NCBI GenBank assembly: GCA_018340375.1
Contig: JAFFJZ010000004.1
Location: 23,658,001-23,722,000 of the forward strand
DNA from: Gonatopus flavifemur
Lineage: Eukaryota > Arthropoda > Insecta > Hymenoptera > Dryinidae
Reading direction: 5' to 3'
Length of the DNA stretch: 64,000 nucleotides
The first letter of the stretch is position 1; each line of letters begins with the position of its first letter. Below, piece after piece: positions 5,150-61,949 of the stretch. The notes beneath the pieces were generated by a model. That model did no database searches, was not told the origin of the DNA, and was given only the letters and a program-made list of their open reading frames with translations. The position numbers were made by a program, and so were the translations under genes.

Positions 5150-6230
5150 TGTCTGAGAAATTTTCGTTTCTTGAAAGGGGATTCGAACCTAACTACTTAA
5201 CCTATCACCTCCCTGGCGAAAAAGTTTCACATAATTCCTCATATGTTTCAGTATTTTTTCATATAATTTCTCATATATTTTCATAAATGTCATAAATTTT
5301 CATAATTTCTCAAGGAATTGGAACATTTAGTATGAGAAATGTTTTCTCATAATAAGTCATAATTTCTCATGAATGAAATCATATTATTTCATATATTTTC
5401 ATAATTTCTCATAAAATTACAGAAAATTTTTCATAAATATAATGATAACTATGAGATATGGTTTTTCATAAGAAGTCATGATTTTTCATAAAAACTCATA
5501 ATTTCTGATCAAAAAAGTTACAATTATTCATAAATAAAAGTGTATCGTCATATAATTTCCTAATTTTTCAAAAGAATTGCATATATGTCTTAATTTCTTG
5601 AAAATTTCATACAGTCTCTTCTCGCATCCGTAAAGACGAGGAGGATAATATGAAATATCAACACATATGAAAACATAGAAGCCTGCTGAAGTAACTGATC
5701 CAAGTGATCCGGATCACTTGGATTAGCTACTTTGGAAGGTTCCATAGCGTCTTATCAAAACAATAAATGATAAATCTTATTTGACTTTATGAACATATGT
5801 TTTGGAGAGATTATAAAAAATTTGGAAATTTCAAAAGGAAATTGTTTTTCTTATAACAGCACCTCTTTTTTTGAAAAATTGTGAGATTTTGTTCAAAATT
5901 TATGAGAATTTATGAAAAAATATGAAAAATTATGAGAAAAGCATTTCTCATAAGAGTGTTCAAACTCCTTCAGAAATTATAGAATTTTATGCAAAAATTA
6001 TGAGAAAATATGAAACTTTTATGAGAAAAGTATGGAAAATTATGAAAACATTATATCCCATAATGATGTTCCAAATCCTTGAGAAATTATGGGATTTCAT
6101 GAATAAATTATGAAAAAAAAATGATGAAAAAATATGAGAAATTATGAAAAATTTTTTCGCCAGGGCTACCCGAAGAAGCGGTCTTAACACGTTGAGCTGA
6201 CGCGCTATATGATGATATAGTGACTTATTA
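5150..6230 (-). mobile_element. tRNA-like (SINE-type) sequence split by an inserted element
   Basis: Read on the minus strand, bases 6230-6166 contain a box A-like stretch (CAGCTCAACGTGTTAAGAC) and bases 5210-5165 contain a box B-like stretch (GGTTCGAATCCCC). The two halves are separated by the element at 5211-6165. Joined, they have the order of a tRNA gene's internal promoter, which suggests a tRNA-derived SINE head or an old tRNA-like copy. I did not fold a full cloverleaf, so a functional tRNA is not claimed. Confidence 0.45.
5211..6165. mobile_element. Non-autonomous element, ends CCCTGGCGAAAAA, 2-bp duplication CT
   Basis: The ends are CCCTGGCGAAAAA on the left and its reverse complement on the right, with CT on both outer sides (5209-5210 and 6166-6167). 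The interior is built from TCATAATTTCTCATA-type words, forward in the left half and inverted in the right half, so the whole 955 bp is roughly a giant degenerate palindrome. There is no coding capacity. It interrupts a tRNA-like sequence. Confidence 0.8.
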
Positions 6231-6615
6231 GCTCTCAACGTGATAATGTTATACAACTGATAAAATTGTCGTTTGTGTAAAATTCCTCAGAATGTATTTC
6301 ATAAAAAGGTCTTGAATTTTCGAGTAATGAATCCAATATTTCGTCTAATGTCGCCATGGGATATACTTTATTATGGTGGAAAGAACCATGAGTTCGCGAC
6401 AGAATACCACAACTCTTCTTGAAGTCAATATGCGGAGTAATATTAGGACCTTGAATAAGTTCTCGCTGTTTCGTCACAGACGGCACTAGCAGTAATCCGT
6501 GCTTGAAATTCCGAATGGTAACGCACTTGCAAGGAAGTATTGTATCTAACCTAAAATTTGAGTGTATGATAGTTCACTTTAATATAAACAAAGTAATTGT
6601 TCATTAGTTTTGAAA

Positions 6616-7903
6616 ATGTCTACTTTTGTGCCAACAAAAGTGGATTTGCGGGGAATTTTATTGCCCTACTTTGATCAAAAGAAATCTGCAGCTAAAGCAC
6701 ATAGAATTCTTATTGAGACTTATGGTGACAATGCTCTGTCCAATATGACATGCAGAGACTGGTTTCGACGCTTCAAAAATAATGATTCTGAACTTGAGGA
6801 TAAAGAACGTTCTGGCGCACCAAAAAAATTTGAAGACAGAGAATTCGAGGAATTACTCGTTGAAGACCGATCTCAGACGCTAGCAGAGCTTGGAAAACAA
6901 TTACAAGTTGATGAGCCAACTGTTTCAAAACGTTTGAAAATGTTAGGAATGATCCAGAAGCGAGGACATTGGGTGCCGTATGAATTGAAGCCAAGAGACA
7001 TCGAACGGTGTTTTGTCACGTGTGAACTATTGCTTCAACGGCAGAAAAGAAAAGGTTTTTTGCATCGTATCGTGACTGGCGATGAAAAATGAATACACTA
7101 TGATAATCCAAAGCGTAGAACATCATGGGGTAAGCCTGGCCATGCATCAACATCGTCCGCCAAACCAAATATCCATGGTTCGAAGCTTCTTTTCTGTATT
7201 TGGTGGGATCAGCAAGGTGTAATTTATTATGAGCTGCTTGAACCGAATGAGATTATCACCGGGGATCGCTATCGACTTCAATCGATGCGTTTGAATCGAG
7301 CCCTGAAAGAAAAACGGCCGCTATACGAGAAGAGACACGACAAAGTGATTTTGTTACATGACAACGCCCGGCCTCATGTTGCAAAACCAGTGAAAACCTA
7401 CCTGGAAACGCTTCGATGGGAAGTCCTACCCCACCCACCGTATTCACCTGACATAATCCCTTCTAATTTTCACCTATTCCGTTCGATGGCACATGGCTTA
7501 GCTGACCAGCGTTTTCATTCTTACGAAGGAGCTAAAAAATCGGTCGATTCTTGGATAGCCTCAAAAGACATGTCATTTTTTCACCGTCCTCGGAGAGAAA
7601 TAGATACTAATGGGTATAAGAAATTTACTAGTGGTTAGTATACGAGGACAAGTATCCAGATTGTACAAATTTATTCTTGTCCTTAGTATCCATATGCTAA
7701 GGAGTATTAAATATATTATACCCCTTAGCATATGGATACTAGGGACAAGAATAAATTTGTACAATCTGGATACTTGTCCTCGTATTCTAACCATTAGTAT
7801 CTATTTCTCTCCGTATGGTATTCATATACTGCCAGAAAGATGGGAGAAAGTGGTCTCTAGTGATGGGACTTTGAATAAAACGTTTTTGTTCCTTATATTT
7901 TAA
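6616..7903 (+). pseudogene. mariner transposase pseudogene
   Basis: The first block (6616-7092) has the mariner N-terminal helix-turn-helix domain (FDQKKSAAKAHRILIETYGD, CRDWFRRFKNND) and the linker motif WVPYELKPRD. It reaches VTGDEK, where the conserved tryptophan codon has become TGA. The frame then continues through HYDNPKR, HDNARPH and YSPDIIPSNFHLF. The first two catalytic aspartates are present but the third is asparagine (PSN instead of PSD). The frame is then broken by the insertion at 7591-7813 and resumes as LPERWEKVVSSDG. The stop, the lost catalytic residue and the insertion each inactivate it. Confidence 0.92.
7591..7813. mobile_element. Foldback (long-palindrome) element inside the mariner gene
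   Basis: The left arm starts CGGAGAGAAATAGATACTAA and the right arm is its near-perfect reverse complement, leaving only about 10-20 bp of loop around 7706-7722. The 223 bp would fold into one hairpin. Outside lie cct (left) and tat (right), so I cannot read a clean target duplication. The mariner coding sequence resumes immediately after it. Confidence 0.8.
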
Positions 7904-8137
7904 ATAAAGTTTTCATTTTGTGAAATAACAGCGAGAACTTATTCAAGGTCCTAATAAGAACATACAAAGTTGGAGTTCCTATCGTCATAATCGGATACTT
8001 TGTCTAGAAGATAAGAAGAAGAAGATAAGAAGATAAGAATCTTTGATATCACCTTTTCTCTGGGCAAGCTTGGCACAATTCGAATACTGCTCCACTGTTG
8101 AATGTGGTGGCACCAGAGATTGACCGAAAATTTTTAC

Positions 8138-8479
8138 CGAAAATGACTAACATTAAAATTGTGACTATCGGTTCCGAAGAAAACTCGGAATTGGTAGTCA
8201 GGAGTGTCGACAAACTCCCTAATATCGCAATTATCATACTTATGTTCACATATCAACGTAATTAACAAAACAATCCCGAGTCTCGGCTTAAAATTTCGGC
8301 CGACGAGCATCAGCCACAAATATGAGTTGAAAATCTCAATTATTTTTTTAATTACATTGATATGTAATCGTAAGTATGAGAATTCCATTATTAGGGAGCT
8401 TTTCTACACTGTCAACTGCCAATCCCAGATTTTCTTATAAATCAATCACTAGTCACAATTTCAATTTTAGTCATTTTCG
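8138..8479. mobile_element. Degenerate inverted-repeat element
   Basis: The left end CGAAAATGACTAACATTAAA matches the reverse complement of the right end CAATTTTAGTCATTTTCG. The similarity continues inward through CCTAATATCGCAATTATCAT and its mirrored copy. The arms are about 150 bp with many differences, so the copy is old. No target duplication is clear. Confidence 0.6.
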
Positions 8480-8899
8480 TTGAAATCATCAACAACAATG
8501 ATCAACTGATTGTCAAGAACCATTGTTCCAAATATTTTGATCCAGGCATTGTATGGTTTTAGCACAACCCCAATATTTATGAGATAGCCTTCCAAACAAT
8601 GTTGAGAAAACTCATTCATTCCAGATATTTGAAATAATTTCATTCTGCATCAGGTAAACAGAATGGATCCAAATGATATTTCTGATAATCTGTTTGATCC
8701 CAATATTTTATATTGATCTTTGAATTGTTGAACATACGATAATTAGATATGCATGTAATGAGAACACGGGGCACCATCAGTTCTCCAGGCGACTCCCTAG
8801 AGGGGAATCAGATCATTACAAGATTACATTATGATCCTTCAGCGGAGACTCATTTGTTTGCGCATAATTCAATGTTGAAAGCGAATTGAAATATCCAAG

Positions 8900-11310
8900 A
8901 ACTCGAATTTGCCAGTGATAGTACAAACCTGTTCCAGCTTGGCACATTTGTCCCATAGTTATAACTTGATTCCCGTACGTTAAACTGAGGAATTCACGAA
9001 CTGCAAAAACGGATTGGTTGATATTTAGTGAATCACTAGGACCAAGTCTGACATAATCAACAGCCCAAGCCTGGTCTTGATCTTGGTCATTCGCAAGATT
9101 GAACTAAATTTGGAGGAAATGTTCATGACGAGTTTCGGTAGGTGTTGTGCCAGACTTGGTCCACGATTGGGCCATTGATCATTACATGCATGGGTAGTTA
9201 TAAGACTAATTACTTCATAATGATAATGATGATTTGAGAGCTAGAGGAGTTTTAGTAACGGAACCAATGGGCCTTTTTCCGACTTGGCGCATAATGTGGT
9301 TACTAGAGCGCTGGGAGTAGCCCGTTCTCGAGAGTTTGGAATTTTCCGAAGAAATTCAAAATGCTCACAACTTGAAAGCCAAGCCGCGGATCAATATCCT
9401 CTTCATATTCACGAAAGTATCCCCATGTGAGGAAATTTTATAGAAATTATATATAATACGACGTATACAAATTCGATCGTGCACAAGGTATATGAATTGT
9501 GTATAAGTCCGTTATATGAAAAATCTATCGCATATTTGATGGATGCATAATTTCCACATACTGTATATAATAAAATCTGGATGGAATGTATTATTCACTA
9601 TATACTATATCATTATTACATAAATCTTACATATGAAATTACCTGATAGTACATGTGAAAACTGTGTCAATTGAGTGTTAGAACAAACGGCTTCGCTTCG
9701 ATTACGAAAAAATCAGTATTTATGAAGTAGACGAATGAGAAAAACATTTCAACCTAACTGTGCACAATCATTTACTTCTTCTTTGGCAGATGTTCCAACG
9801 AATACATTCTTCATATGCGTATTCACTTCACAGGCATGGTAAATAAACTGCGGGAAGCAGCTCTGTATTCCGCGCATGTACTCAAACAAATTCGAAGAAG
9901 TTTGAAACTCCCAAAAAGTACCCGTTTGTGAGATTTGTTTCAGAGAGTGAGAGGGTTTTCATATGGAGGAAGGAAACACTTTGATGTGACGCTCTTTCAG
10001 CGAGAACAATCCCTCTGAGAATCTTCAATTGTTCAGCCACTCCTTGAGATGTGAGAGGAACGTCAACAGCATGTGACAGAAGTTTTCGAGAATTTGCAAT
10101 TTTCAATATATATTATAATTTTCCTTATTGCTATCCTTATCAAACGTTTAATTAGAATCCTTCCTGGAACTGCTTTGTATTCAGAACTCGTCCATTCATC
10201 AATGATGACCTACAATACACGTATAGAATTCTACTTGATTAATAGATTCTCCACCATCTCCAGTAACAATAGAATATAAAGTGAAGACGCGATACATGAT
10301 TCGAAAAGGAATTTCACATCTAGATGTAAAATATGAGTCATCAGAGAATACTCATTCGATATTGGCGCTGTAATGCATGAAGGCTGGATTCAATTATATA
10401 CTCCAAATGATAGATTCGTTTGGTGGGAATATTATAATATTGAGATCATGATTGGTTCTTTTTTCTAAAGAATACGGAACAATCCCCCATAGGTGTATGG
10501 ACCAATGGCCCAATGATGGACCAAGCCTGGCACAAGACCTGCCGAGACTTGTCTTGAACAATTCATCAAACTTGGCTCAGGCTTGGGAATGATAAGATCA
10601 GGACAAGCTTGCGCCAGTGGTTTTGCCAGGCCCGGTTCAATTCATTTACTAAGCATCAATCAATGCTTCTTTGATCGCAGATATGGATGAAAAAAGTAAT
10701 TGACCCATGTTTCAATTCATGACTTTCTCCCTCAGAATACCGTACATGAATTATCTTAAAACGATAGAAAAAATGTGACAAGAGACTGGGACAAGCTTGT
10801 ATGATCGTTGGAAAATTTGTGTTCTCTGATATTTCAATCAATACCGATGGTCTTCAAAATGAGCCAGACATCCTAAAATTCTGTTGAGAGTTCTTCAAAA
10901 TCAGTTGATCTCCGTGTATGATTACATTTGAAAGTATCCTATTACTATTAAGTGAAGTTCTATCCTTACTTAGATCAATAAAATCCAGCTGGGTGTGTAA
11001 AACTAGTATGTAGGATTAATCATGGCAGTAAGATCAGGCCAGCCCTGGCCCGATGGTTATCCCCAAGTCTTCAGCCATTGTAAATTCAAAATTCAGTCAA
11101 TATTTATAAACATTGTGCTACTCATGTGGGCAATATTGGCACAATTGTTCTCAACGAATGTTCGATTTTTACACTTGTGCCAATTGTTCTTCACGGAGGT
11201 TTGTTTCTGACACATGTGCCAACCTTGGAACAAGCTTGGGTTTTTTTCAGTCTTGGCAATACTTGCATGGGCCAGTTCCCTGGATTTGGATTATTGAATT
11301 GCCATGATAT
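8900..11310. repeat. Scattered CTTGGCAC / CCAAGCTTGG-type words
   Basis: Patches at about 8935-9180, 10500-10640 and 11030-11280 repeat words such as CAAGCCTGG, CTTGGCAC, CCAAGCTTG and TTGGGCCA in both orientations. The pattern matches element interiors elsewhere, but the patches have no clear ends. The rest of this interval, including 9235-10490, shows no gene; 9480-9660 is rich in TATGTATA-type words. Confidence 0.45.
9196..9234 (+). mobile_element. LINE 3'-end remnant
   Basis: The sequence ATAAGACTAATTACTTCA followed by degenerate TGA repeats matches the last bases of the LINE at 47920-50144 (TAAGACTGATTACTTCATGATGATG). Confidence 0.6.
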
Positions 11311-11449
11311 CTTCATTATGATGATGAGGCCAAACATCGATTGGGATTGGAATGAGTGAGATTTAGTACACATGTGACTGAATTGAATGAATTCCTCGAC
11401 TGGATATAACCTATTCGTAATCGGTCAAAAAATCGTTCAGATCTGATTA

Positions 11450-14165: not shown

Positions 14166-14189
14166 TTTGGGCCAAACTAGATGTCATCG

Positions 14190-19444: not shown

Positions 19445-19762
19445 CCCAAGTAGCATCGGAATATACTATGAATGTTCTGTGAATATTCGAAGTATATTCT
19501 ATGCACATTCCAATGAGACCGTTTTATAGATACTATGCACATTCATCGAACGTATGTAATCGAATATACGATGGTACGTCAATCGAACGTCGATTGAATG
19601 AATATCGTACATTCCGAATGTACTATGTACGTACTAAGTATATTTCAAACAGTCTCATTCGAATATTCTATGAACGTTCACTATATGTTCTTCGTATCTC
19701 ATTCGTACATTCTATGAACGTTTCTATTTCGTATATACTTTGAACTTCTGTTGCTGCTTGGG
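19445..19762. mobile_element. Non-autonomous element, ends CCCAAGTAGCA, 2-bp duplication TT
   Basis: The left end is CCCAAGTAGCATC and the right end, reverse-complemented, CCCAAGCAGCAAC. TT flanks both sides (19443-19444 and 19763-19764). The interior is a series of ATTCTATGAACGTTC / GAACGTACATTC-type words in both orientations. Confidence 0.75.
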
Positions 19763-21419: not shown

Positions 21420-22932
21420 TGCTGTTAGAGGTGTCTTTTAGAGAATTTTGCTCCAAGGCTCTCTTATTTGTGGAGGGAAAGAAATCCGTAACTCGAAAAA
21501 ATAAAGATGAAGGCTTCAATCATGAAGCTATCCGTTGTTATTACAATCCTACGCGGATAGTTTACACAACAAGAAAACCGTTTTGACATGAAATGATTTC
21601 CACTCTATTTCATTATCATACCCGTTGTCGGTAGCTATTTGACATGACTGGGAGAGGGTTCAACAGAATAATATTCCTCTTCGAATGCATTATGCAATGT
21701 TTATTCATAACCCAACCCTTTGTATACAACATTATCAACGACTTCATCAAAGTTATAAATGTTAGATCAATAAATGATTTACTAATTCGACGAAATTTCA
21801 TTTTTGCCTGGAAAAATATGATAAGTCAACATGAGTTTTCCAATTTTCTTCAACTGAAATTTCGTAGATTATGAAGAATGTAAACAATTATTATCAAATT
21901 TACATAGTCAAATACTATAACGTCAGTCTAATATCCCAGTACGTGTCTCCTATTGTTTTGCTGATTGTACATCGCAGTAAACCCTAACCTATTTATTCTC
22001 ACAGCTGGTGAATTGCGCTAACAGCTCTGTTTAACTATTCCAAGAACGTGTCTCGCTGGAAACTAGAGAGGAGTGAAGAGGCTGAGATCTGCAGTGGGAG
22101 GAGGAAGGATAAGGTCAGTCAGGTCGACAGCAATTCGATTTTAAAGTGATGTAACAATGAATGTCGCTCAAGCCTTAAAGATCACGAATCTCGAATTTGA
22201 TGGCAGGTCATATAAAATGGTATTCGTTTTCGAAATGGATTAAATTTATGAAAATATTCGTTGTAATTATACAATACACTTTTAGAATAATTTGTCAGAT
22301 AATTTTTCATATATGTATATATGCATATGAAGAAAATATGGTCCAAAGTTGCACGTAAGAGATAGAATATGAGAGATTCAACGTTATTGTCTGTGTTTAA
22401 TCTTCTGAGAGTTATTCACGACGAAAGTAGTAAAAGAATTCCAATGGTCAGACGTAATCAAACTGTATCGGGGTTCCGTTTCTGCTGCTATTTTCAGGTT
22501 TCTAGCCTCTTTTGTCTTCCCTTGCGTTCTTGCACTAGCTATTAAGAGGATACCAGAGTTACCATCTGATCATATTGGTTAGAAGAAGACAAACCTATAC
22601 AATAGAAAAAGAGGTCTGAAGCAAACGCTGGTATCCTCTTTTAATATTTAAACATTCATCCAAGATCTCTGTGAATTCGGTTCAATAACTAAATTTGGTA
22701 TTCGCATTATTAACGAAATACACTGTTGAAAAAACTGAACACCGGATTGATGGACTTATATATACACACACCGAGATTGTGTAGAGATTATACTTAATTC
22801 GGCGTTAATTTCCAAAATGCAAAACAAGTCTGAGTGAAGTCAACACAAATCAGGAATAAAATTTCAACACAGAATTGATGGGCGCACATATACACACTGA
22901 AAAGTGATCATAGGAGGTGAAATTTCTAACGT
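21420..22932. other. No gene seen; one small inverted repeat
   Basis: The only structure is at about 22552-22644, where TTAAGAGGATACCAG is mirrored by CTGGTATCCTCTTTTAA, a mini inverted-repeat element of about 92 bp. Imperfect direct repeats (ATTGATGG...ATATACACAC) lie at about 22745 and 22875. Confidence 0.4.
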
Positions 22933-22936
22933 GTAT

Positions 22937-24899: not shown

Positions 24900-27800
24900 A
24901 CATCGATTCTATTACCAATATTTGTACATATCATCATCGTAAATATGCGCAAAAGTTTTTCCATCTGTTTGGTAACAAATGTTGTGATCCGTTTACACTG
25001 GGAAAAAAAATTCTTTGAATTATTGAAATTGATTTCATTGATTCCCATTTCATTGCATCAAATGAATGTCTTTTTGACACTAAAATAATTTCATAACCAT
25101 AAAAAGTCGTTTCATTCATACTATCAGATCAGCTCATTGAAATTTATTTCTTGAAATTAAAAACGCACTCTATTGACTGAGTGACTAATTATTTTTGTCA
25201 ATATCATCTTTCATCCGATTTACAACTCTCATTTGATGAATTCCAAAGTGAAAATCAATGAAATACAACTTCAATCTTATAACGTAAAGTTTCGTATGGA
25301 AATCGAGGTTAATGATACTTAGTATTTGAAATTCTTAACAATCAAGTATTTGATGTGATACTTGTTTTCTGCACCAGAATAATTATTGACTCCAAATGAA
25401 AATATATTTCATAAAATGAATAGACATGGCTTACAAATGATGAACGTCTCCCATCATGAGAAAAACGACACGAGAGCAGGTTAATAAAATAATTATTATA
25501 TTCAAGAACATGAAGTTATAGCACCAAGAATACTGTTATTCATAAACCGGTACAGTTGAGAGTATAATAATCTCATTCATTCCAATACAAGTGGTTTTGT
25601 TCAGATAATAAAATCAAATCATGTACTGAATAGTTGTGAATTTTGATTCCGAAAATTCTTTTTTTTCAACAGAAAATTAAATTCATGATCACAATGAGAT
25701 ACTTTTTCAATTCAAACGTCAGAGAAATTTCTTCGGATAAAATATATTTTATAAAAGAGATTTCATATGGCCAATGATAGTTTGGATAGTTTTGAAATCA
25801 ATAGAATGAAGTATTATAACCCATGATTTGGGGATTCAAATCGAATGAAGCTATTTTATCTATGCTAATAAATGTGTTCTCGAAGTTTGAATCGTTGATA
25901 GGAACACAACGAAAATTAAGACTCACGAAATCTGATAAATCATCGTTACATATCTTTTCGAATCACCTCTTTGCCACTGGAAACATCGTTCGAATAATGT
26001 ACTGCAAGCTTTTGGGCTTTAATAGTTGAATATTATCTTATTCGATGGTTAATTAGTTTCAATAAACGATCCAAACTTCAGCAACATCTGAAAAATTACC
26101 TCATTAAAAATTTTCATTCATGATTGAAGAAGGATTCTAGTCATTAAACTGCCAACCTGATTATTCTTGTCAATACTACGTTTGATGAGGTCAAAATTTT
26201 ATACATTCTGCAAAATTCCAGTGCTTTTTGCAAATAAAGGTTCCATCGGGTCCATAAAATGGATACATCGATCGAATTTATGAATTCATGGAAACAAAGG
26301 AAGATGTTTTTGAAATAAAAATGTATTTAATTCACTCCGACAAATTGCGTTTACTTCTCAGAAGGTGGCAATACTTTCTCACAAGCTATCTTCCTGCAGT
26401 GCAGTTCGCATATGAAAAACTAATTCACCGTAAACCTATAGTAAGTAATGTTCCGTCCTAATAAATATTTCTGTCAGGTTTCGACACCGAACATCATCAA
26501 CGGATATGACTGGATCGCAGAGAAAAACAGTTTCCTCGAACTTCTTGATCATATTGATCATCTGATCGAATAATCCAATTGTTTCAAATGAATTACAGAT
26601 CACACAGGAACTAGGAAGGTCGGCTCCGCCCTTGCGCGAATGCTCTGACTCCTGCTTATTTCTTTTTATTCTGAAAATTTTTTAAAATATCGTTCATCCA
26701 ATCAAAATGAATTTCATTGATTCGAAAAAAGATTTATTTATATCGATAAGTCTTCTGAAGGATTAGAAAATCTCTTTGTACATTCTATGAAATAATTTCT
26801 TAGATAGGAAAGAATATTCATTGTTTCAAATATTGATTCATTTACCAAAAATTTTCATTTCATATTCATGAAAACATTTTATTTCGAATGCAAGAAATAT
26901 TTATATTATTTATATTGATATTTCCCTATTTTGAAACTTTTTTATTCAAATAATCAAATATTTTATTGAGAGGAGAAATTATCATTTTGGCACTGCAGTT
27001 GACTATCATTGTGTTATGAATGGCTTCTGCCCATCAAATGCATAATTCATTGAATCAAATTATATTCCATGAATTCGGAAATCAAAATCTTCCATCCAAT
27101 AACTTTTTCATCAATCCCAAGTACCTCATATTCCAATTAATGATCCCATCATTTCCGTGTGAATTACATATCACATGAAGTTGGTGCAATAACTCCACAA
27201 ATACCATTGGATGAATTCATTTCTTAGACTCAAAGAAAAATTCATCGGTTCAAAACATTTTTTCTCAGTGTAATATTCACTAAAAACTCATTCATAAATC
27301 TTTGAAAGAAATCACAATAGAGTTGAGTTCTACAAATGAGAATCTACATCTTGCACCTGGCCACGCAATTTGTTCAAGGTGTATCAATATTTTAAATGAT
27401 AAGAATATCAATGGTGATAATACTAGTGAAGATACTTATGAAGTATGTTCTCAAGATTCAGTTGAGCTTGATGCATTATTTGAACCCAAGTCTGTTGTAA
27501 TAGAATCTCTCAATAGTGTGGGCGGAATTTTAAACGGACCACCCATTTCCCGTATCCAAAAACTGAGCAAATCAAACAGAAAAAGACAAATAAATGCAAA
27601 AAGTGGAAGAAATCTCAAATAAGATGCGAAAACAGTTAGAAACTGCTTCTGAAGTTGTAGAATGTGAAAAAACTCAAAATGAATGTGATTCTTTTGATGA
27701 TGATTCGGAATATAGTATTCAAGGTTGATCGATGAGATGAAAAATAAATTTGAATCTGCAGATACATTTGTGGAAAAATATCAAATCCTGAGTTTATTAC

Positions 27801-30757: not shown

Positions 30758-31264
30758 TCCTGGTGAAAATGGAAGCGGGAAAGAAGAGCAAACGAAGCGT
30801 ATGCTGGAGGGTAACAAAAACGTTAATGAAAAGTATACAGAGCTTGGATGGAGAGGATACAAAGAGTATGCGAAGCGGGAGTTGAAACAGAAGAAGCGTA
30901 TGAAATTCAAGAAATGTAATCCAAAAAATTGAACCCCATAGCGGGGATCGAACCCGAAACTTTTACAATGGTAGCCGAGGGTCTTATCCACTCAGCCATT
31001 GATCGTCGTTGGGATCGATCGCATAAAGATATTATTTGAAATCAGAATAGGTATGATTCGCAAACGTTTAATATAACTCACTATTACTTCACATGAAGAG
31101 TGTGTGAAACGGGATCGAAAGCTTATGAAGCGTATATGGAACGTATGATTTCTATACTTCACAGTAAGGAGGCATTACACGTTTCATGAAGAGAGAATTG
31201 AAACATTTTTCCCTTCGTATATGCTTCCTCCGCGCTTTGTGTATACGCTTCATTTTCACCAGGG
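30758..31264. mobile_element. Non-autonomous element, ends CCCTGGTGAAAATG, 2-bp duplication TG
   Basis: The left end TCCTGGTGAAAATGGAAGCG mirrors the right end CGCTTCATTTTCACCAGGG, with one mismatch at the first base. TG flanks both sides (30756-30757 and 31265-31266). The interior carries GAAGCGTATG and ATACGCTTC words in both orientations and a tRNA-like sequence at 30931-31010. Confidence 0.8.
30931..31010 (-). repeat. tRNA-like sequence (SINE-type)
   Basis: Read on the minus strand, TGGCTGAGTGGATAAGAC resembles the box A region of Ser/Leu tRNAs and GGGTTCGATCCCC is a canonical box B. The flanking seven bases do not pair as an acceptor stem (ACGATCA against TATGGGG), so I read this as a tRNA-derived repeat or decayed tRNA, not a working tRNA gene. 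Confidence 0.55.
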
Positions 31265-33617: not shown

Positions 33618-34900
33618 CACTGAGAAAAAAAAGTCATGACCGTAATGAATATTTCTTCCGGCCAAGGAAATGAATTCATCCAATAGTGACAATGAAATCA
33701 TTTCATGGGACTTATCAATCTGAGTATTCATGCAAACAATGTATTCAAATCTGAAATTCTTGAGCCTGAAGAAACATTCCTTTGAATCAAATACCCTTTC
33801 TTCAGTGAAAATAAACCTACTCTGATTCAATTAATTATTTCTTCGGAGGAATGAAAGCACTTAAACATTCAAAAAAGAAAGTTTTTGAATCAATTAGGAA
33901 AATTTTCAATCCATCGAAATAAATCATCAACTTCAAGATGTTCTTTTTTGACTTCGTGAAGTCCATCCTGATTGAATAAATGATGTTTCAGAAGTCATTG
34001 AGCACAATATCAGATTTTTTCTGTAAAAAAAAAATTATCACACTTGTAAAGCTTTCATAGTCCACTCTGTTGTTCCTTTAATCTGTTGATAACCGGGAAT
34101 TCTGAGCACTTTGGATCAAATGAGACTTCATTGATCGTTCAGTCATGCCGTCTGTTAGGCGAATAGTGCCTATCACTCCATGCGGGACCTGTAATTCAAT
34201 GCCATAATCTGAAAGAAATATTTATTTGGATGAAGTAATACTTACTAAGAAGACAGAGTGATTAATTCTTTATATACAAACCATACTGTCGAAAGAGAAC
34301 TTGTGAGAAAGTGACTACACCTTGCGAGAACCAACCGAAAGTCGTCTAAGTAACTAAAACGTAACGTGATTTCGAAAATCCATTTCTTTATCTTACTGAA
34401 TTTTCTTTAGAATCAATTGCACATACTTTCATATCGATGAATGAAATCATTTGAATATAAAAATCATTCTGTGGATTTGAAGAAATACAAAATCATGTTT
34501 ACCGAATATTACTTTCATTCCAAGCAGTAAAGTATTGATTCGAAAACGTTGTTATTAACAAATTTTTACACCTTGAATTGAAAATTCGAGCTTTTCCTAC
34601 AAAACGTGACGTAATAAAATTGAAGAAATAAGTTATTGAATTTTCAATCGTTTTTGAATGAAATTAGAATCATGCCTTGCATTTCGCGGTCTGACTAATC
34701 CAAAGAATTAATTTTTGTGTCAATAAAATGTTTCTTGGATTGGAGGAAACTTGATTCAATAAAATAATATCTTTCATTTAACGAAAGAATTCATTATTTC
34801 TATTGAATCATCATTGTTTGAAAGGACATGTATTCAGTTCAATGAGGGCCAGATTCAAAAAAATGTATTTGTTTGATGTAATGACTTTTTTTTCTCAGTG
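33618..34900. mobile_element. Non-autonomous element, ends CACTGAGAAAAAAAAGTCAT, 2-bp duplication CA
   Basis: The left end CACTGAGAAAAAAAAGTCAT mirrors the right end ATGACTTTTTTTTCTCAGTG. CA flanks both sides (33616-33617 and 34901-34902). The interior has GAAATGAATTCATC / TTGATTCAAT-type words in both orientations. No protein is recognised. Confidence 0.85.
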
Positions 34901-35751: not shown

Positions 35752-36031
35752 CACGGAGAAAAAAGATTTCGTTATTTTAACGAATCCGTCTTCGCTGAAC
35801 GGATTGAATAACCTAACGATGACATTTCGCTGTGTTAATGAGCTAATTCGCTGTATTTACTAACTGATTCGTTATAATTATCAGTCCTTCGCTAATTTTC
35901 CGAAGCTTGATTCGCTGAAACAACGAATCACCGTTCACTTCAGCGGACTTGCTTGCTATCCATATAATAACAAGCGAGTTCCGTTAAGACAACGAAATTC
36001 TTACTATTCCAACGAATTTTTTTTCTCCGTG
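35752..36031. mobile_element. Non-autonomous element, ends CACGGAGAAAAAAG, 2-bp duplication TG
   Basis: The left end CACGGAGAAAAAAGATTTCG mirrors the right end CGAATTTTTTTTCTCCGTG. TG flanks both sides (35750-35751 and 36032-36033). The interior is a series of TTAACGAAT and GATTCGCTGAA words in both orientations. Confidence 0.85.
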
Positions 36032-36086: not shown

Positions 36087-36384
36087 CCCAGGAAAAAACA
36101 AATCAGATCTACATGGATCTGAAGAATGGAAAAATTCTTTCTGTGCAGGTCAATTTAGATCTAAGAAGATGAGTTAATTCTCCGTAAAAATACGTCTTAG
36201 ACACCATCTAATAGTAGAGGAAATGTGCAGTTGATGCACGCAAATTGTGATTAATTACCGTGAAATTCTTGTCAATTTAGGTCCAAATCGAACTATTTAG
36301 ATCTAACCAGAGCTACATTTTCCACTTTTGAGATCCAAAAAGATCTAATTAGATCCACTTAGATGTAAATTATTTTTTCTCGGG
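36087..36384. mobile_element. Non-autonomous element, ends CCCAGGAAAAAA, 2-bp duplication AA
   Basis: The left end CCCAGGAAAAAACAAATC mirrors the right end TTATTTTTTCTCGGG. AA flanks both sides (36085-36086 and 36385-36386). The interior repeats AGATCTA / TAGATCT words. Confidence 0.75.
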
Positions 36385-40094: not shown

Positions 40095-40637
40095 TTGTTG
40101 GATTTCAGACAGTACTGGCTGGCATGGTCAGACGGTCTTGGGCCAGTATCGAATTAATAATGTTCGGAGAATACCCAGACGATATAGAAACGGAACCGTG
40201 CCAGTACCGAATCAGAGTGAGTTGAATGGTAAAATGCGAAAAGAAACGATGCTGCACCAGTATCAATGCAACATTGTTCTAATACGGAATAGATAGTGGA
40301 TAGGAATTTCACTGATCTTTCAATAACACGGTTACTTTGACGAGACAATACTGCGCCAGTACTGAGCCAGAGTAAGTGTTAGCATTCAATATGTTCCATA
40401 GATGACAATGTGACAGTATTGATGAGACTCTGATTGATTACGACAACTGTAGTCGACTGGCGTTCAAGTCACAATCTTAACAACTTGGCTGTTGTAGTGA
40501 GCCGAAGTCTTGCCAGCATTAGCCCAGAGTTGGTATGATCATCCAATATGTTTGAAAGACAGCGATGTGCCAGTATTGATAGGACTTTGACTTTCTACAG
40601 AATCAGTGGTCGAATGATATTAAAATCAGGACCTTAC

Positions 40638-41105
40638 ACTGAGGGGAAAAACTCGTAAAATGTACATCTCATTAGATAAATATATGGATGATTGAGGATT
40701 GAGTGCAAGCGACCACAATTTTAGTTGATTTCACACACTGAGAAAAAAGATCGTGGAGCCAACTACATGATGGGGTTGGATATGGCGAACGACCGGATGT
40801 AGTTGGGTCAACAGAATATTCAGTAGACTCAACTATACTTCATTCACTTCAATAATACTTCCTTGAGTCAATCGAATATTCTGTTGACTCAACTACATCA
40901 TGTAGTTGGTTCCACAATCTTTTTTCTCAGTGCAACAACGCATGTGAAATATACCAAAGCTGATGCGAAATATACTATAGCTGAAGTGCGTCCTACTTTC
41001 TCTGCGGTGAAATTAGCTGAAATTGTAGTAGCTCGCAATAAATTTTTAAATCGTTCATATATTTACTTAACAAGAGGTAAATTTGACAACTTTGTTTTCT
41101 CGGTG
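40638..41105. mobile_element. Non-autonomous element, ends CACTGAGGGGAAAA, 2-bp duplication TA
   Basis: The left end CACTGAGGGGAAAAA mirrors the right end TTTGTTTTCTCGGTG. Inner similarity continues through TAAATATATGGATG and its mirrored copy. TA flanks both sides (40636-40637 and 41106-41107). The element at 40736-40932 is nested in it. Confidence 0.7.
40736..40932. mobile_element. Non-autonomous element, ends CACTGAGAAAAAAGAT, 2-bp duplication CA
   Basis: The left end CACTGAGAAAAAAGATCGTG mirrors the right end CCACAATCTTTTTTCTCAGTG. CA flanks both sides (40734-40735 and 40933-40934). The 197-bp interior is almost only CAACTACATGATGTAGTTGG- and GACTCAACTA-type words. Confidence 0.85.
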
Positions 41106-46556: not shown

Positions 46557-46769
46557 CACTGTAAAAAAACTTCCAAAAACAGGTTTGGAAGTTGTTTTAC
46601 CTAACATTTTTTGGTAAGTTCACAAACATAGTGGGTGAAATTAGAAACAATTTTTGTCAATTGACAAATATTTTCTGGGAAATCACAAAAATTGTTTGGA
46701 ATTTACCAATCTGTAAGTTTTTCACCATACTTTTCTGCTTGGAAATTCACGAATATTTTTTTTACAGTG
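46557..46769. mobile_element. Non-autonomous element, ends CACTGTAAAAAAA, 2-bp duplication TA
   Basis: The left end CACTGTAAAAAAACTTCC mirrors the right end ATTTTTTTTACAGTG. TA flanks both sides (46555-46556 and 46770-46771). The interior repeats TTTGGAAGTTG, AAACAATTTTTGTC and related words in both orientations. Confidence 0.8.
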
Positions 46770-46899: not shown

Positions 46900-47268
46900 C
46901 ACGGAGAGAAAAAATTTGCTGACGCAGCAAATCGAGGTATTATATATAGAATAGCAAAATTTTTTGCTGACCTAGCTAAAAATTCGCTATAACAGCAATC
47001 GTGTTAGCTACGACAGCAATTTTTAGCTGTGGCAGCAAAAAATGTTTGCTCCGCCAGCAAATTTTCAGTATTATATACAGAATAGCAAACAAATTTTGCT
47101 GGGATAGCAAACATTTTTTGCTGCTACAGCTAAAAATTCGCTGTCGCAGCTAAAAAGATTGCTGGAACAGCAAATAGTTTGCTGTCACAGCAAAAAATTT
47201 GCTGCTCTGGCAAAAGGAACCCAGCAAAAGTAGATTTCGCTGCCACAGCGAATTCCTTCCTCTCCGTG
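46900..47268. mobile_element. Non-autonomous element, ends CACGGAGAGAAAAAA, 2-bp duplication AA, copy 1
   Basis: The left end CACGGAGAGAAAAAATTTGC mirrors the right end CCTTCCTCTCCGTG. AA flanks both sides (46898-46899 and 47269-47270). The interior is an array of TTTGCTGNNNCAGCAAA-type palindromic words. Confidence 0.85.
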
Positions 47269-47611: not shown

Positions 47612-47848
47612 CACGGAGAGAAAAAAGTTGCTGACGCAGCAAATCGAGGTATCATATATAGAATAGCAAAATTTTTTGCTGGGATAGCAAACATTTTTTG
47701 CTGCCACAGCTAAAAATTCGCTGTCGCAGCTAACAAGATTGCTGGAACAGCAAATAGTTTGCTGTCAAAGCAAAAAATTTGCTGCTCTGGCAAAAGGCAT
47801 CCAGCAAAAGTAGATTTCGCTGCCACAGCAAATTCCTTTTTCTCCGTG
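47612..47848. mobile_element. Non-autonomous element, same family, 2-bp duplication TA, copy 2
   Basis: The first 70 bp and the last 170 bp are nearly identical to copy 1, but about 130 bp of the middle array is missing. TA flanks both sides (47610-47611 and 47849-47850). Confidence 0.88.
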
Positions 47849-55306: not shown

Positions 55307-55308
55307 TA

Positions 55309-56577
55309 TCATTCTTCCTTTTGGGACTATAATAATTTAAGATTGCTGAATTGTCATTAGCTGTCAGCTTCACCAGAGGGCTCTGCCCTCTGACTGCTTC
55401 GCTTCGCTCAGCAGTCCGATCCCCTTTAAATCGTGGCCTACATATGCTCGCTTCGCCCGCATCTTCAACAATTCAGATATCCGGGTATATATGGAAAGGC
55501 ACTCATCAGTTTTTTGCTCGACTGGAAATATTTTTTATGTAACATTCAGGAAACCTGAAACTAATCGCCTACCATTCTTTATACCATGTTCAAATGATTA
55601 AGAAACATGTTTCTAAACAATTGCAGAATCAGGACAACTGTCCCGGTGGAAATGGAGCGTGGAAGTGCAAAGAGAGCGTGAGTTGAGAGTCAATTGAGCG
55701 TAACGGAGAATCATCTGGGCATGATTTGAAAAGGAATTGAAATGACTACTTTCTTCACTTTTAGGTTCCCACTGAAGTGGAGTTGTCATAATGTCAACCA
55801 GCTTTTGAAGAGTGTTCGGATACAAGAAGGCGTACAAGGAAAGATCGAAACTCTGATTTCCCCTGGACATTTGATCCCAGATTTGGATTCAGTACCCCCG
55901 GAAACCTGCAGAACCCATGTTCCTCATAAATCTGTCCACGAATGCAAAAATTACTCAATTAACGTTCGCCTATTGGATTCACCATTTTGAATTGGTTCTC
56001 TGACTACAGATTTGGATTCAGAACCCCCGACAACCCCTAGAAACCATTGTTACGTTTGAGTTGCCTCAAACATAGCATTAGGAAAGGATATAGCAATGTA
56101 ACTTGTTATACACTTGATTAGAAAGGAGGGAGAGGGAAATCTCGTTTCAGGATTAACAAAAATGAGTTCATTAGATCTCATATATAATTACAAATTTATG
56201 CAAAGAAGCATGCAAAATGGTATTTCACATCACATTCTTCAACATACAAGTTGAAAAGACTCTTCGAACTCTTCACGACACATAACTTCTCTCAATCCGA
56301 TGCAATTCATTAGAATAAATTCTTGGAATGATTTCATTTTTGATGAACATGATTGACATTTTTCTTTTCTCTTTATTAGTTGAATTTGATTTTGATAGTC
56401 CATCATGTGATGAACTTGCATAAAAGTATAAAAAGTCTTCACAAATTCCGCATTTAAAATATTCTATTTGAAGGTCAGTACACAAAATACACCTTCGGGG
56501 TAGAGGATATGAATTATTTTCATACTTATTGGTCTGATTACACTAGTTTACAGCCATTTTGTAAATTCGATGCGACT
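55309..56577. other. No gene seen; one broken GGAAGCG-family end
   Basis: Bases 55635-55740 (CCCGGTGGAAATGGAGCGTG, then GAGCGTGAGTTG words) resemble the left part of the 30758-31264 family with no right end. A GC-richer patch at 55360-55450 has CTTCGCTTCGCTC-type words of unknown origin. Short imperfect direct repeats occur at 55868-55915 and 56005-56045 (GATTTGGATTCAG...ACCCCC). Confidence 0.4.
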
Positions 56578-57572
56578 ATTTTTTTCTCATGCACTTTGGC
56601 TCGCTGAACTTGAAAATCACAGTAACAAATTTTTTCATGTATAGGTTTTCGAATTATGAATTTTTTTCAATTTAAAAAATTTTTTTCCGATCATAGTTTT
56701 ACTATTTGAGGTATATCTCGAGCCAGAAATGGCCAATCTGGTTGCATGAGGTCTCAAATTGAAGATAATTGAATTGCCAATGAATATCATTACCGTTCTC
56801 ACTAATCAATTGGGTAGTTTAAGTGCAACGAACCGAAATATGTGGAAAAATTCAAGTTTTTTAAGAAAAATGAAAATGAAAAAGTCCCTTTTTTGCCGAG
56901 GAAAAATAGAAATCATGTAGGGGAGAGTGGGGACACTTGCACCATGGGGTGATATGCACCACAGCAGATATCTCTTAATTTTCCAAAATTTCTGTACTGT
57001 TCTTGCACGTGGCGTTTGCTGAATGGATGACCTAACTCCACACGAGTTCACAGGAATGTGGAATGAATCTCTGTTTTTTTATTGATATCAAAAGGTTTGG
57101 CACTCTCAAAATCGTTTGATTTGTGTCTCCTTAGTTTTTCAGAAAAAGTTTCCCATGATCTGTAAGTGATCCCAAACACCACGAAACCAATCTCAATCGA
57201 AAGTACAATCGTTGCAATATTTTCATGATCCACTTTTTGACTGAAAATATCTGGAATTTTTTTGCGAGCATCAGTAGTCTGTTGATGCCGTGAGGGGTGC
57301 AATGCACCACAAATTGCGGGGATACTTGCACCACTTCCGATGTTTCATTTTTTTTTATAGAAACAGGTATTCAGAATGATCCGTACACTCGGATGTTCGA
57401 ATCTGAATGTTCTTCCGAAGAACAGAAGAGAGAAGGAGAGGAAGGAGAGAGAGAGAGAAAGATTCTTTTGTTTGATAAAATACTCTGTGAAACTCTTTGC
57501 TATTTCCATGAATGATCTCACTTCATATAAGTCAGGGGGGATAAACTCAATGAGAGAATTTTCATAATGAAC

Positions 57573-57721
57573 TTCAGCGCCGCCAAGGGGAAGACTACTG
57601 GAACTAACCTCACATGGATACATTTACACAAATGCTCAACAAATCATAAAAGTTTGTGACACAGTATCAGTGCCTTCATGTGAGATTAGTTCAAGTACCC
57701 TTCCTCTTGGCGGCGCTGAAA
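57573..57721. mobile_element. Short inverted-repeat element, ends CTTCAGCGCCGCCAAG
   Basis: CTTCAGCGCCGCCAAGGGGA and about 25 further bases are mirrored at 57677-57721, separated by about 55 bp. The target duplication is not clear. Confidence 0.65.
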
Positions 57722-57994
57722 TCAGTCTCAAGAACGTTCAATTGCGTTTATGCCTCCTGATATGAGTTGGTAGGAGTGACAAATTTCACTTGTTTCCTCC
57801 GTTCATAGCAAACACTCTTGTGCAATTAGTTTTCAATAAAAGGTTGTTGCTAGTATCAAACTCTAAACTGCATAAAGTCCATCTTGATCGTTAGTTCAGC
57901 TATTCACTTGTATATCTGATTATTCATTTCAAATAAATACTGATAAATAGATTTGAAAATAGTGGTTATTATTCCAATTAGCCCTTCTAATTTC

Positions 57995-58402
57995 TCCCCA
58001 TAAAGAACGATACAAAACGATAAATTTTTTCTATAGTTTTCAATGAGGTTTCTGAATACGGAATTTACGAAGTTATATCGTTATCAAACGATAGAACTCT
58101 ATCGTTCCTTACCGTTTTCTATAAAAATTTAACAGATTGTATAGGGTTTTATCGTGAAATTCGTATTGGAAAAGTACTACTTATTCTAGAACACATAACT
58201 ATTTTTTTCCAAATAACTGATACTTCTCCTATACGAATTTCACGATAAAACCCTATACAATCTGTTAAATTTTTATAGAAAACGATAAAGAACGATAGAG
58301 TTCTATCGTTTGATAACGATATAACTTCGTAAATTCCGTATTCAGAAACCTCATTGAAAACTATAGAAAACATTTATCGTTTTGTATCGGTCCTTATTGG
58401 GA
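57995..58402. mobile_element. Near-perfect 400-bp palindrome (foldback element)
   Basis: The left half from TCCCCATAAAG mirrors the right half ending CCTTATTGGGA, with arms of about 170 bp. The arms contain TTATCGTTTTGTATCG, CGATAGAACTCTATCG and TTTTATCGTGAAATTCG. The short centre is around 58165-58225. No coding capacity. Confidence 0.75.
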
Positions 58403-58433
58403 AAATTTAGCAGGGAGAGGATCAATTACTCAG

Positions 58434-58434
58434 G

Positions 58435-58484
<50 letters not shown>

Positions 58485-58490
58485 AAGAGC
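58434..58490. repeat. (GA)n microsatellite
   Basis: A GAGAGA run sits inside the GGGGAGAGTGG element. Confidence 0.9.
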
Positions 58491-59415
58491 TAATTCGCAG
58501 GGTGGTGCAAATATCCCCACAGGGTGGTGCAAGTCTCCCGCCATGTGGGGAGAGTTGCACCAAACGCAATGTTTTTGAAGAACACTTATATCATTGATAG
58601 GATGTTAGATTCGATCTTGCTATCATTTGCAACTTAGAAAGGAATGTTTGCTCTGTCAAAATCCCATAAATAATATATCGAATGAAGTTAACCACGGAAG
58701 TTATAACAATGTAAAAAAAAAGTGGTGCGAGTGTCCCCACTCTCCCCTAAATATATTCAGTTACGAATTCTCTACGTGAAATTCGTACTCTTACGAAGAA
58801 AACCACGTATTTACAAAAGAAAATTCATGGGACATTGACGAAGTTACAATCGTTTATGTACAAGTATCAAAATTCAGCTTTCTTTATCCTTGGACTCCTA
58901 TCTTATTCATAGCGTATACTCAAGTTTAATCGATTCGAATCATTCTTATTATGATATTTTGATACAACATGGATGAATCAGAAATAATTTCAGCTTGTTA
59001 ATCGTCTTTTGTGTTTTTTGCGGCATTTGTTCCTCTGACATCTCACATCTGTGTGTTATTAGATCCCCTCAAAATGTTTGAATCGATGTTCTGTGTTGTG
59101 ACATTAGGATTTTATTTTTCAATTTATTTTATCTATCATGAGTGGAAGGAAACGAGATTTTGAGTGCGTAAATCATCCAGACAATTTTTGCCACGTATGC
59201 GGTAATTATGTCGTGGAAAAGATTCGCCAAAAATTCACCAACCCTCTTCAAGATCATTATCTGCAATATTTCAAAATGAAAGCTGGAAATCTTGATGAAC
59301 CATGGACACCAAATATTGTATGCTTTCCATACCGTATGAATCTCGTAGGATGGGCTTCTGGCTCGACAGGGTATGTATTGAGTAATACGTGGATGTCAAA
59401 TCTACAGCTTGAGTA

Positions 59416-60464
59416 CACTGTTAGAAAAGTTCTTTAATTTAATATGAAAATTCTTATGAAATTCTATAAGTACATCTTAAAATTAATAATATTCTGTGAT
59501 TCACAACATGTTTATGAATTTTCACATTAAATGCATGAAAATTAATAACCGGTTATGAAAATTCAAAATATATTATTAAATTCCATGCAAACTTCCTAAT
59601 TCTAATAATCTATAATGAAAAATAACAATAATACATGTTGAAATGTTAAAGATGGCTTCTATGCGCATAATTCACTGCGCACTTTGTTTTTGGGAGCATA
59701 TAATAGTATATACATGTATACATATGATAGAATCCATAACCTCTTAATTATCACTAATGGTCAATAACTCATGGGTATGTATACCATGATTATATGTCCT
59801 AATTCAATTAGCTTTAGTTACATGTGAACAAATTCCCGAAGTTTTTATACACATATAGTTGATAACAAGATAACTTTGAAATATGGGTAAGTCTTGTTCT
59901 TTTCTCTTTCATATTTTTATCAATGCAACTCTATTTACGGAATCAAAATTGAATACTTTTATGAATGTATGTATATATGTGTGTGTGTGCAGAGCATATG
60001 TGATATCTGAAACTGTATCGTATTTTACAGTCGATTCCTTCAATCGTGATGTAGTCAAGCTGGTTGAGGCGTGAAGTCGTAGGTTAGGTTTGGTAGGAAA
60101 GCAGGTTCGATCCCCCGTTGGGCCCCCAAAACTTTCCGCTCCAATTGACTTTGACTACATTCACAATTACGTACTCACTTCGGGAGAGTTTCGAGGATTC
60201 CAAAATATGAAGGAAATTCCCAATGATTTGTGTTGAGAACTTCAAGATTTTTTTCTGTTAATTCATAATTCAGAATTATGAATTTTAATATGTAACACAT
60301 TATTGGATTTCATAGGAATTCCATGTATATAAATTTATAATAATTGTTATTAAATTTAATACTCAGTTTTTAATATACAATACAGTATTAAATTTAATAA
60401 TAATATTATGTAAAAAACTTCATAATAATTATTATTAAATTTAAGACAGATTTTTCTAACAGTA
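59416..60464. mobile_element. Non-autonomous element, ends CACTGTTAGAAAA, 2-bp duplication TA
   Basis: The left end CACTGTTAGAAAAGTTC mirrors the right end ATTTTTCTAACAGTA, whose last base has mutated from G to A. TA flanks both sides (59414-59415 and 60465-60466). The interior is rich in AATTAATAATATT / TTATGAAAATTCATAA words. It lies inside the intron of the surrounding gene and contains a tRNA-like sequence at about 60047-60127. Confidence 0.75.
60047..60127 (+). repeat. tRNA-like sequence (SINE-type)
   Basis: TAGTCAAGCTGGTTGAGGCG has a box A-like shape and AGCAGGTTCGATCCCCCG a canonical box B about 40 bases later. The surrounding bases do not give an obvious acceptor stem. Confidence 0.5.
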
Positions 60465-60483
60465 TATAGTATATACTAATTTA

Positions 60484-60754
60484 CAATGAGAAAAATGTTC
60501 ATGTATAATTTTCCATCATTCATAGTAAATTGAGAATATCTTAACCTGAAAATATGCTGTTGAACGTGCATGAACTATGCAGCAATTGAAGCTATCTTCA
60601 CGCACTTCCGTTCTAAATGTTACTCGTTTGTATTGTGGATTCAACCAAATGACAGTTAAATTTATCAGCTCCGACAACACATTTGTGGTTTCCAGGTCAT
60701 AACCTTGATTTCTCATCAATTATGGGAAATTATACAACCAAATTTTTCTCAGTG
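60484..60754. mobile_element. Non-autonomous element, ends CACTGAGAAAAAT, 2-bp duplication TA
   Basis: The left end CAATGAGAAAAATGTTCATG (one mutation from CACTG) mirrors the right end CAAATTTTTCTCAGTG, with further inner similarity (TGTATAATTTTCC). TA flanks both sides (60482-60483 and 60755-60756). It lies in the same intron. Confidence 0.65.
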
Positions 60755-61213
60755 TATATAATTATTTCATGGATTTTAGTTTCGTTTTTGACTTAAGCGG
60801 CTAATGAGATTCGGTGTACCAATGATGTGGAAAAAACCGTTTTGTCATGCAACCGATTGCTATTTTTGTCTAAGCAAACAGACAGATTTTGGAAAAAATA
60901 TGTGATGGGATTACGCAAATTTACAATCTGCCACGTTTCCAATACCACACTCGGATACACTTTTCATTCCAAAATGCCCCAAATCACCTACCCTTGAAAT
61001 TGGTAACGATTTATGACACGATACGAAAACGAATAGTGATAGCGATTTTGATGCTACTGAGAAGCATCATCTTTTAACTCAAGGTGAGTTGAATGATTGG
61101 GTGAGAGATTTGAACCTTTCAGAAGATGCAGCAGAATTGCATGCATCTCGAATGAAACAATATAACTTTTTGGCTGCAAATGTTAGGATAACGTATTACA
61201 GAGACCGTGACAA

Positions 61214-61949
61214 CCCAATCAGAATTTAACAACTGGCGCAGTACTGCACCAGTACCGGCTAACACTGGCGGGGTACTGGCGGTCTGCACTGCAGCAGTAC
61301 TGGCATTTGCCCGAAATGATAACGCTTTTCCGTACTGGGTACTTGGTACTGGCACAGTACTGGTAACCGGTAATGGTCTTCAGTACCGGCGCAATACGCC
61401 CAATCAGAATTCCACAACTAGCGCTGTACTGCGCCAATACCGGCTAAGACTGGTGGGGTACTGGTGGTCTGTACTGCAACAGTACTGGCATTTGGCCGAA
61501 ATGATAACGCTTTTCCATACTGGGTACGTGCTAGCTGACTCTTGGAGGTCGAATACTGGCACTGTACTCCGCCTGTTGTCAACATTGGCATACTTCGGGT
61601 TTTCTGATTGGGTGATTTCCTATTTGCAATCACTGCAGTGCCTGTATTGTATCAGTACTTGCTCAACATCAAGCTTTCAGTACTGGTGTATCAGTACTGG
61701 CGTAGTATTGTATCAGTACTTGGTCGACATCAAGCTTTCAGTACTGGTGTATCAGTACTGGCATAGTACTGTATCAATACTTGGTCGAAATCAAACTTTC
61801 AATACTGGTGTATCAGTACTGGTATAGTACTGTATTTCTATGTATCCAGTACTAAATCCGTACGTGCTAGCCGACTCTTGGGGGCCCAATACTGGCACTG
61901 TACTCCGCCTGTTGTCAACATTGGCATACTTCGGTTTTTTCTGATTGGG
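61214..61949. mobile_element. Non-autonomous element, ends CCCAATCAGAA, 2-bp duplication AA
   Basis: The left end CCCAATCAGAATTTAACAAC mirrors the right end TTTTTTCTGATTGGG. AA flanks both sides (61212-61213 and 61950-61951). The interior is an array of GCAGTACTGC / GCCAGTACTGGC words with longer internal direct copies. Removing the element and one AA joins the surrounding exon in frame. A 206-codon frame through the array (61207-61827) reflects the repeat, not a gene. Confidence 0.85.
61399..61622. mobile_element. Second CCCAATCAGAA element nested inside the first
   Basis: A complete pair of ends (CCCAATCAGAATTCCACAAC and CGGGTTTTCTGATTGGG) lies within the outer copy. The flanks are CG (61397-61398) and TG (61623-61624), which would be a 2-bp duplication with one CpG-type transition. 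Confidence 0.65.

Follow-up and report, generated by a model that had tools for sequence, protein, structure and literature searches.

Non-coding elements with CAC- or CCC-type ends, two-base target duplications and frequent word arrays in the wasp Gonatopus flavifemur, probably moved by a CMC-type transposase

Introduction

Plant CACTA/EnSpm transposons combine CAC-type ends with short target duplications, usually of 3 bp, and with subterminal motifs in both orientations, which are bound by a protein of the element and are kept near both of its ends. In the dryinid wasp Gonatopus flavifemur (NCBI GenBank assembly GCA_018340375.1) we have analysed a stretch of 64,000 nucleotides on contig JAFFJZ010000004.1 (positions 23,658,001 to 23,722,000, forward strand), referred to as the window, in which fifteen elements, also called passengers below, have been found to carry inverted ends, an identical dinucleotide on both flanks and, in many cases, an interior made of a repeated short word; unlike in the plant elements, such words can fill the entire element. 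These passengers are probably non-autonomous cut-and-paste DNA transposons of many families, and the enzyme that moves them in trans is probably a DDE transposase of CMC type with the RAG1/Transib fold. All genome-wide counts refer to the whole assembly of 636 Mb in 402 contigs.

The closest described systems are CMC-NA_1 and CMC-NA_2, miniature inverted-repeat transposable elements (MITEs) of polydnaviruses and their wasps, which have 5'-CAC...GTG-3' ends and a 2-bp duplication, are non-coding, and for which an autonomous partner has not been found (PMC6004678, in excerpt). The CAC-ended elements of the window resemble them in all four respects. Word-array interiors are not mentioned in the excerpted part of that paper, whereas here many families occur, in part with arrays, ends are of CACTG, CACGG and CCC type, and one end alone is present in more than 11,000 exact copies. 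Chapaev3, likewise of the CMC group, has CAC...GTG ends and, according to the excerpted source, a TWA duplication between A and T (PMC4079192), which differs from the varied 2-bp duplications of the fifteen passengers. ISL2EU, as far as the excerpted source describes it, shares the 2-bp length with them and differs in its AT duplication and its usual GG ends (PMC4482050).

Ends and target site duplications

When the left end of each element was reverse-complemented and sought in the window, an inverted right end together with an identical flanking dinucleotide was obtained in 15 of 15 cases (from left to right CT, TT, TA, TG, CA, TG, AA, TA, CA, TA, AA, TA, TA, TA, AA), the chance of a single 2-bp flank match being ~0.074. 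The original prediction, which had listed these fifteen elements, has thus been reproduced with one correction, as the outer element of a nested pair starts at 40637 and not at 40638. Its division into CAC(T/G)G and CCC-type ends has likewise held, with few one-end deviants: CAC-type ends are found in ten elements, on both sides in eight of them (one end is TAC in the element at 59416 and CAA in that at 60484), and CCC-type ends in the five that start at 5211, 19445, 30758, 36087 and 61214, the left end of 30758 being TCC. A scan of the window made independently of these positions, with a match required at 12 or more of 14 end bases and 20 Markov shuffles as background, has returned six pairs of the CAC(T/G)G class, all six with a 2-bp repeat, while the shuffles gave four such pairs in total and none with the repeat. 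Genome-wide, the 13-base end CACKGAGAAAAAA occurs exactly 11,768 times (5878 + 5890 by strand) and its reversed control 57 times (27 + 30), figures that cover one exact 13-mer and count ends rather than elements. A search of open-access full text with three end sequences has yielded unrelated papers only, and a 15-base pattern matched at least 120 stretches of viral contigs, with a single match in each of the 80 listed, which we read as chance.

The original prediction had also proposed tabulating the duplication length over further copies, and this has come out at 2 bp in all copies sampled from the family of the element at 5211. That family comprises 855 candidate places, 40 of which were scored, the 39 besides the element itself having 91-95% identity; in the window's own copy and seven fetched ones identical 2-bp flanks have been observed in 8/8 (CT, AT, TA, CA, TT, AC, TC, TA), and a 3- or 4-bp duplication fits none of the eight. 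A second sample was drawn from contig C1, where the first 100 places of the 13-mer count contain 14 neighbouring plus-to-minus pairs of exact CAC(T/G)GAG ends within 8.3 kb; 13 were fetched (the omitted pair has unlike ends 4.7 kb apart), and 11 of these show the 2-bp repeat, which is TA in eight and otherwise TG, TT or AG. One failing pair (L010) has unlike ends 8.25 kb apart and is probably two elements, and the other (L014) has inverted repeat flanks and lies in AGATCT-array sequence. The 2-bp length lies within the 2-5 bp of the CMC/CMCT group.

To look for empty sites, the two flanks of every one of the 15 elements were fused around a single dinucleotide copy, and the resulting sequences were matched against the window and the fetched loci. 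Spanning paralogous sites have been found for five elements, namely those at 19445 (window 22400-22469, 81% over 70 bases, carrying TT), 24996 (in L174), 47612 (in L022), 59416 (junction spanned by three copies, gapless in L183 and L185 and with one gap in L184) and 40637, the last being weak (~72% identity, with gaps). In second matches for 24996, 47612 and 40637 the dinucleotide is incompletely preserved where the flanks meet. The element at 61214 is flanked by AA, but its paralogs have ~69 bp at that place that are missing from the window, and the duplication there is an unproven candidate.

Interiors of the elements

Repetition of six-letter words in both orientations was compared with dinucleotide shuffles and with window stretches of the same length, and has been found to be strong (z score 10 to 60) in eight of the fifteen elements, the top words varying from family to family. 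The CCCTGGCGAAAAA-ended element (5211..6165, 955 bp, target site duplication (TSD) CT) carries words of TTATGA/TCATAA type in both orientations, with TCATAA as the top word, and the CCCAAGTAGC-ended one (19445..19762, 318 bp, TSD TT) carries ATATTC/ATATAC words. AACGAA/AGCGAA words occupy the CACGGAGAAAAAA-ended element (35752..36031, 280 bp, TSD TG), and AGATCT words, with ATCTAA/AGATCT on top, the CCCAGGAAAAAA/CCCGAGAAAAAA-ended element (36087..36384, 298 bp, TSD AA). Nested in the element at 40637..41105 lies a CACTGAGAAAAAA-ended element with CAACTACAT-type words (40736..40932, 197 bp, TSD CA). A TTTGCTG/CAGCAAA array, with AGCAAA as the top word, marks the CACGGAGAGAAAAA-ended element (46900..47268, 369 bp, TSD AA) and a second copy of the same family (47612..47848, 237 bp, TSD TA), and a CAGTAC array the CCCAATCAGAA-ended element (61214..61949, 736 bp, flanks AA).

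Moderate repetition (z 3 to 6) has been observed in three further elements. The CACTGGGAAAAA-ended element (24996..27270, 2275 bp, TSD TA) is inserted directly upstream of a Cc8L18.2-like gene stretch and has relatives by its ends in L013 (2279 bp) and L009; the CACTGAGAAAAAA-ended element at 33618..34900 (1283 bp, TSD CA) has a counterpart with like ends in L012 (1281 bp, TSD TA); and the (T/C)CCTGGTGAAAATG-ended element (30758..31264, 507 bp, TSD TG) is unexceptional beside ordinary window stretches, 10 of 60 of which repeat as much. The remaining four are the outer CACTGAG/CACCGAG element (40637..41105, 469 bp, TSD TA) and the CAATGAG/CACTGAG-ended segment (60484..60754, 271 bp, TSD TA), both without a word array, and the CACTGTAAAAAAA-ended (46557..46769, 213 bp, TSD TA) and CACTGTTAGAAAAG-ended (59416..60464, 1049 bp, TSD TA) elements, in which the word signal is weak, the latter lying inside a CMC-type transposase gene. 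Since the segment at 60484 is shared with the paralogs L182-L186, it is old or part of the paralog family.

The word array is therefore common among the elements without being universal, as it is strong in eight and weak or absent in four, and as some elements of contig C1 (L016, L017, L021) contain, by eye, long palindromes instead. What had been predicted for every interior, a single private word array, thus stands for the eight, is moderately expressed in three and fails in four. The predicted takeover of the elements by putative binding-site arrays is plausible for about half of them.

Several observations have been made beside these elements. In L014, a CACGGAG element (120-1060) lies within AGATCT-array sequence and itself holds a further AGATCT array starting CCCGGGCAAAAATC, and in L022 tandem units of ~282 bases, each with CACGGAG, extend over 8663-9868, as if an element had turned satellite. 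By eye, tRNA-like stretches occur at 30930-31010 in the element at 30758-31264 and at ~60050-60130 in that at 59416-60464; ARAGORN and, at the gathering threshold, Rfam have given no match in the window. The element at 47612-47848 is adjoined by a minus-strand reverse transcriptase open reading frame (ORF) of 709 amino acids (47945-50074).

A coding CMC-type element in the window

The window also contains a decayed coding element of CMC type on the plus strand (56541..63569), both ends of which read CACTAGTT(T/C)ACA, are of CACTAG type and are flanked by a 3-bp TTA duplication with A before and T after. CAC...GTG ends and a TWA duplication between A and T are those of Chapaev3, and we call the element Chapaev3-like from its ends and duplication. 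Its transposase gene (59138..62926, plus strand) is broken, with homologous stretches detected by tblastn at 59138-59362, 60795-61211, 61941-62258, 62406-62651 and 62711-62926, and the element as a whole has been broken up by at least two passengers. For the protein, 1109 relatives have been found; a public one is predicted to adopt a RAG1/Transib-like fold. No Pfam family reached the cut-off for the Chapaev3-like protein, and zf-AD was seen on one relative among the 120 listed. In the left part of the element, a stretch at ~56920-58747 with inverted GGGGAGAGTGGGGACACTTGCACC / GGTGCGAGTGTCCCCACTCTCCCC ends and TA on both sides looks, by eye, like an inserted element of a different class, and a hairpin at 57982-58415 (204-base arms, 93%) lies beside a GA repeat.

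Placement of the passengers

Precise ends, the 2-bp duplication, empty sites for some elements, nesting and a high copy number have been seen directly. As the CAC class combines CAC...GTG ends with a 2-bp duplication in the manner of CMC-NA_1 and CMC-NA_2, it is provisionally filed, by this analogy, as non-autonomous CMC; its ends agree with the CA..TG (usually CAC..GTG) termini of CMC/CMCT. Membership of the CCC class is less sure, because it departs from the CAC rule, although the 2-bp duplication and an A/T-rich composition of the ends are common to both classes.

Several results weigh against a CMC-type transposase as the mover. The five CCC-class elements depart from the CA..TG rule, which holds in most cases, so that their membership is lowered rather than excluded; in the blind scan this class was unremarkable, with the repeat in 2 of 7 pairs against 1 of 17 in shuffles. 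A looser blind pairing, in which each left end in the window and the fetched loci was joined to the nearest right end, gave the 2-bp repeat in 21 of 36 cases; among the 15 failures some result from wrong pairing (for 46900 and L027 1681 a partner that matches exists elsewhere) and others are unexplained. A clear word array is weak or absent in four of the fifteen elements (z -0.9 to 2.9: 40637 outer, 46557, 59416, 60484). Among the genome loci examined, no coding element with CAC(T/G)GAG or CCCTGG ends has been found. Finally, the CMC-type subfamily with CACTAG ends that has been mapped, in 12 end pairs (10 of more that exist, the window's and that of L184), shows an exact 3-bp TTA/TAA repeat in five, four of them with A before and T after; a 2-bp match occurs in two (C2, 2 bp; C46, 2 and 5 bp) and no match in five (C313, C262b, C323b, C57, L184). 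The original prediction of non-autonomous CACTA/CMC elements is supported by the CAC...GTG ends with their 2-bp duplication and by the abundance of CMC-type genes, one of which lies in the window, while the elements' own CMC identity is not established, as no same-ended coding copy was found and the mapped coding subfamily makes 3-bp duplications.

It is unlikely, if the least improbable of the alternatives, that the passengers belong to an undescribed or unrelated DDE superfamily in which CAC ends and short duplications arose by coincidence. The missing coding partner, the missing CAC ends of the CCC class and the failure of two candidate transposases speak for it, but elements with CAC...GTG ends and a 2-bp TSD have already been placed in CMC (PMC6004678, in excerpt), and CMC-type coding genes are plentiful in the genome, with 905 candidates, one subfamily of which was mapped for its ends. 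Transposases in which the second D and the last E enclose C(2)C and H(3-4)H are present in the genome, none of which was found inside passenger-type ends, and no coding sequence has been seen in the short member elements, the ORF list of the window being judged by eye. Into one comparison 47 of 150 scored transposase places entered, and its 18/40 is therefore a lower bound.

The first of the two candidates, a Cc8L18.2-like transposase, was initially attractive, as its decayed window copy (27284-29300) adjoins the element at 24996-27270 and the genome holds 2358 candidates (120 scored). Three copies that were retrieved around an uninterrupted ORF have GGGGTAAAATTCGCC ends, inverted arms of ~1 kb and, in two of the three, a 4-bp repeat; neither these ends nor the ~4-bp duplication is shared by the 15 elements, and the candidate was rejected. 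We take this element with its long inverted arms to be Sola-like; a scan of viral contigs returned no relative of its gene. For ISL2EU/YqaJ, 21 matches were obtained, and the genome contains YqaJ genes next to which, by eye, a DDE-like ORF lies, but the end-like CACAGATGAAAAAA sits in an open coding frame, which leaves no link. L009, with 8158 bp between ends matching those of the 24996 family, was considered as an autonomous copy and discarded, as its ORFs, by eye a reverse transcriptase and a tyrosine recombinase, resemble a DIRS-type retroelement.

That the passengers are moved by the subfamily to which the window's own Chapaev3-like element belongs is very improbable. It is abundant in the same genome, has CAC ends and a predicted RAG1-like fold, but its ends are CACTAG and its duplication, where seen, is TTA/TAA, as opposed to the 2 bp of the passengers. 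On this difference in length it was rejected as direct partner, and such a role is largely refuted for the mapped subfamily; because of its CACTAG ends and its 3-bp TTA duplication, the element at 56541-63569 is kin of the passengers and not their driver. An intact ORF of 652 amino acids in this family (L189) showed no ends within 4.8 kb, and two 1-kb pieces around a copy on C353 contain no convincing paired ends.

Even less can be said for MITEs of the Tc1/mariner type that prefer TA. This dinucleotide is the most frequent duplication, in 6 of 15 window elements and 8 of the 11 matching pairs on contig C1, but CT, TT, TG, CA, AA, AG, AT, AC and TC have also been found, the empty site of 19445 carries TT, and TA accounts for only two of the eight flanks in the 5211 family; these non-TA duplications refute it, and the original argument from the variable dinucleotide has been upheld in window elements, family copies and empty sites alike. 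An origin of the mirrored ends by chance or from low-complexity palindromes is scarcely credible, since, for all the A/T-richness of the stretch and the insignificance of the CCC class by itself in the blind scan, the shuffles, the genome-wide end counts, the family copies and the empty sites refute it for the 5211 family and for elements of the CAC class.

Proposed mechanism and implications

For movement by a CMC-type transposase, we propose that an enzyme of the RAG1-fold DDE type would recognise CAC together with adjoining words and act in trans, cutting and joining ends that consist of CAC(T/G)G or CCC and an A/T-rich stretch. Double-strand excision would be followed by insertion with a two-base stagger, from which the 2-bp duplication would result. 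Each family's word may be the site at which a transposase lineage specific to that family binds, and the arrays may have grown through slippage, gap repair or unequal exchange, extra sites being tolerated or favoured. More tentatively, and with rather more doubt than confidence, we suggest a CMC lineage of animals, so far undescribed, that makes 2-bp duplications and has a transposase whose DNA-binding domain diversifies so fast that every lineage would recognise a word of its own. Passengers would compete by multiplying this word until the element is filled, which would give rise to the private arrays seen across a single genome. The families themselves are not claimed to be undescribed, the literature covered being open-access papers.

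Should the words be binding sites, the recognition specificity of a transposase could be read from the elements of its family, and many families of one genome would allow enzyme and site to be followed as they co-evolve. The fold of the group in question and its CAC ends are features also known from RAG1 and the V(D)J signal. Many repeats with 2-bp duplications could also gain a placement in a superfamily.

Other mobile elements of the window

Transposon genes of the window have named relatives in spider, Daphnia, ant and Hydra records. At 404-1528 lies an intact transposase-like ORF of 374 amino acids with a DUF4817 domain, enclosed by inverted arms (1-312/1625-1936, 312 bases, 96%). A Mos1-type mariner gene (HTH_48) occupies 6610-7635 in two open stretches, and at this gene a palindrome with 87-base arms has been observed (7626-7799).

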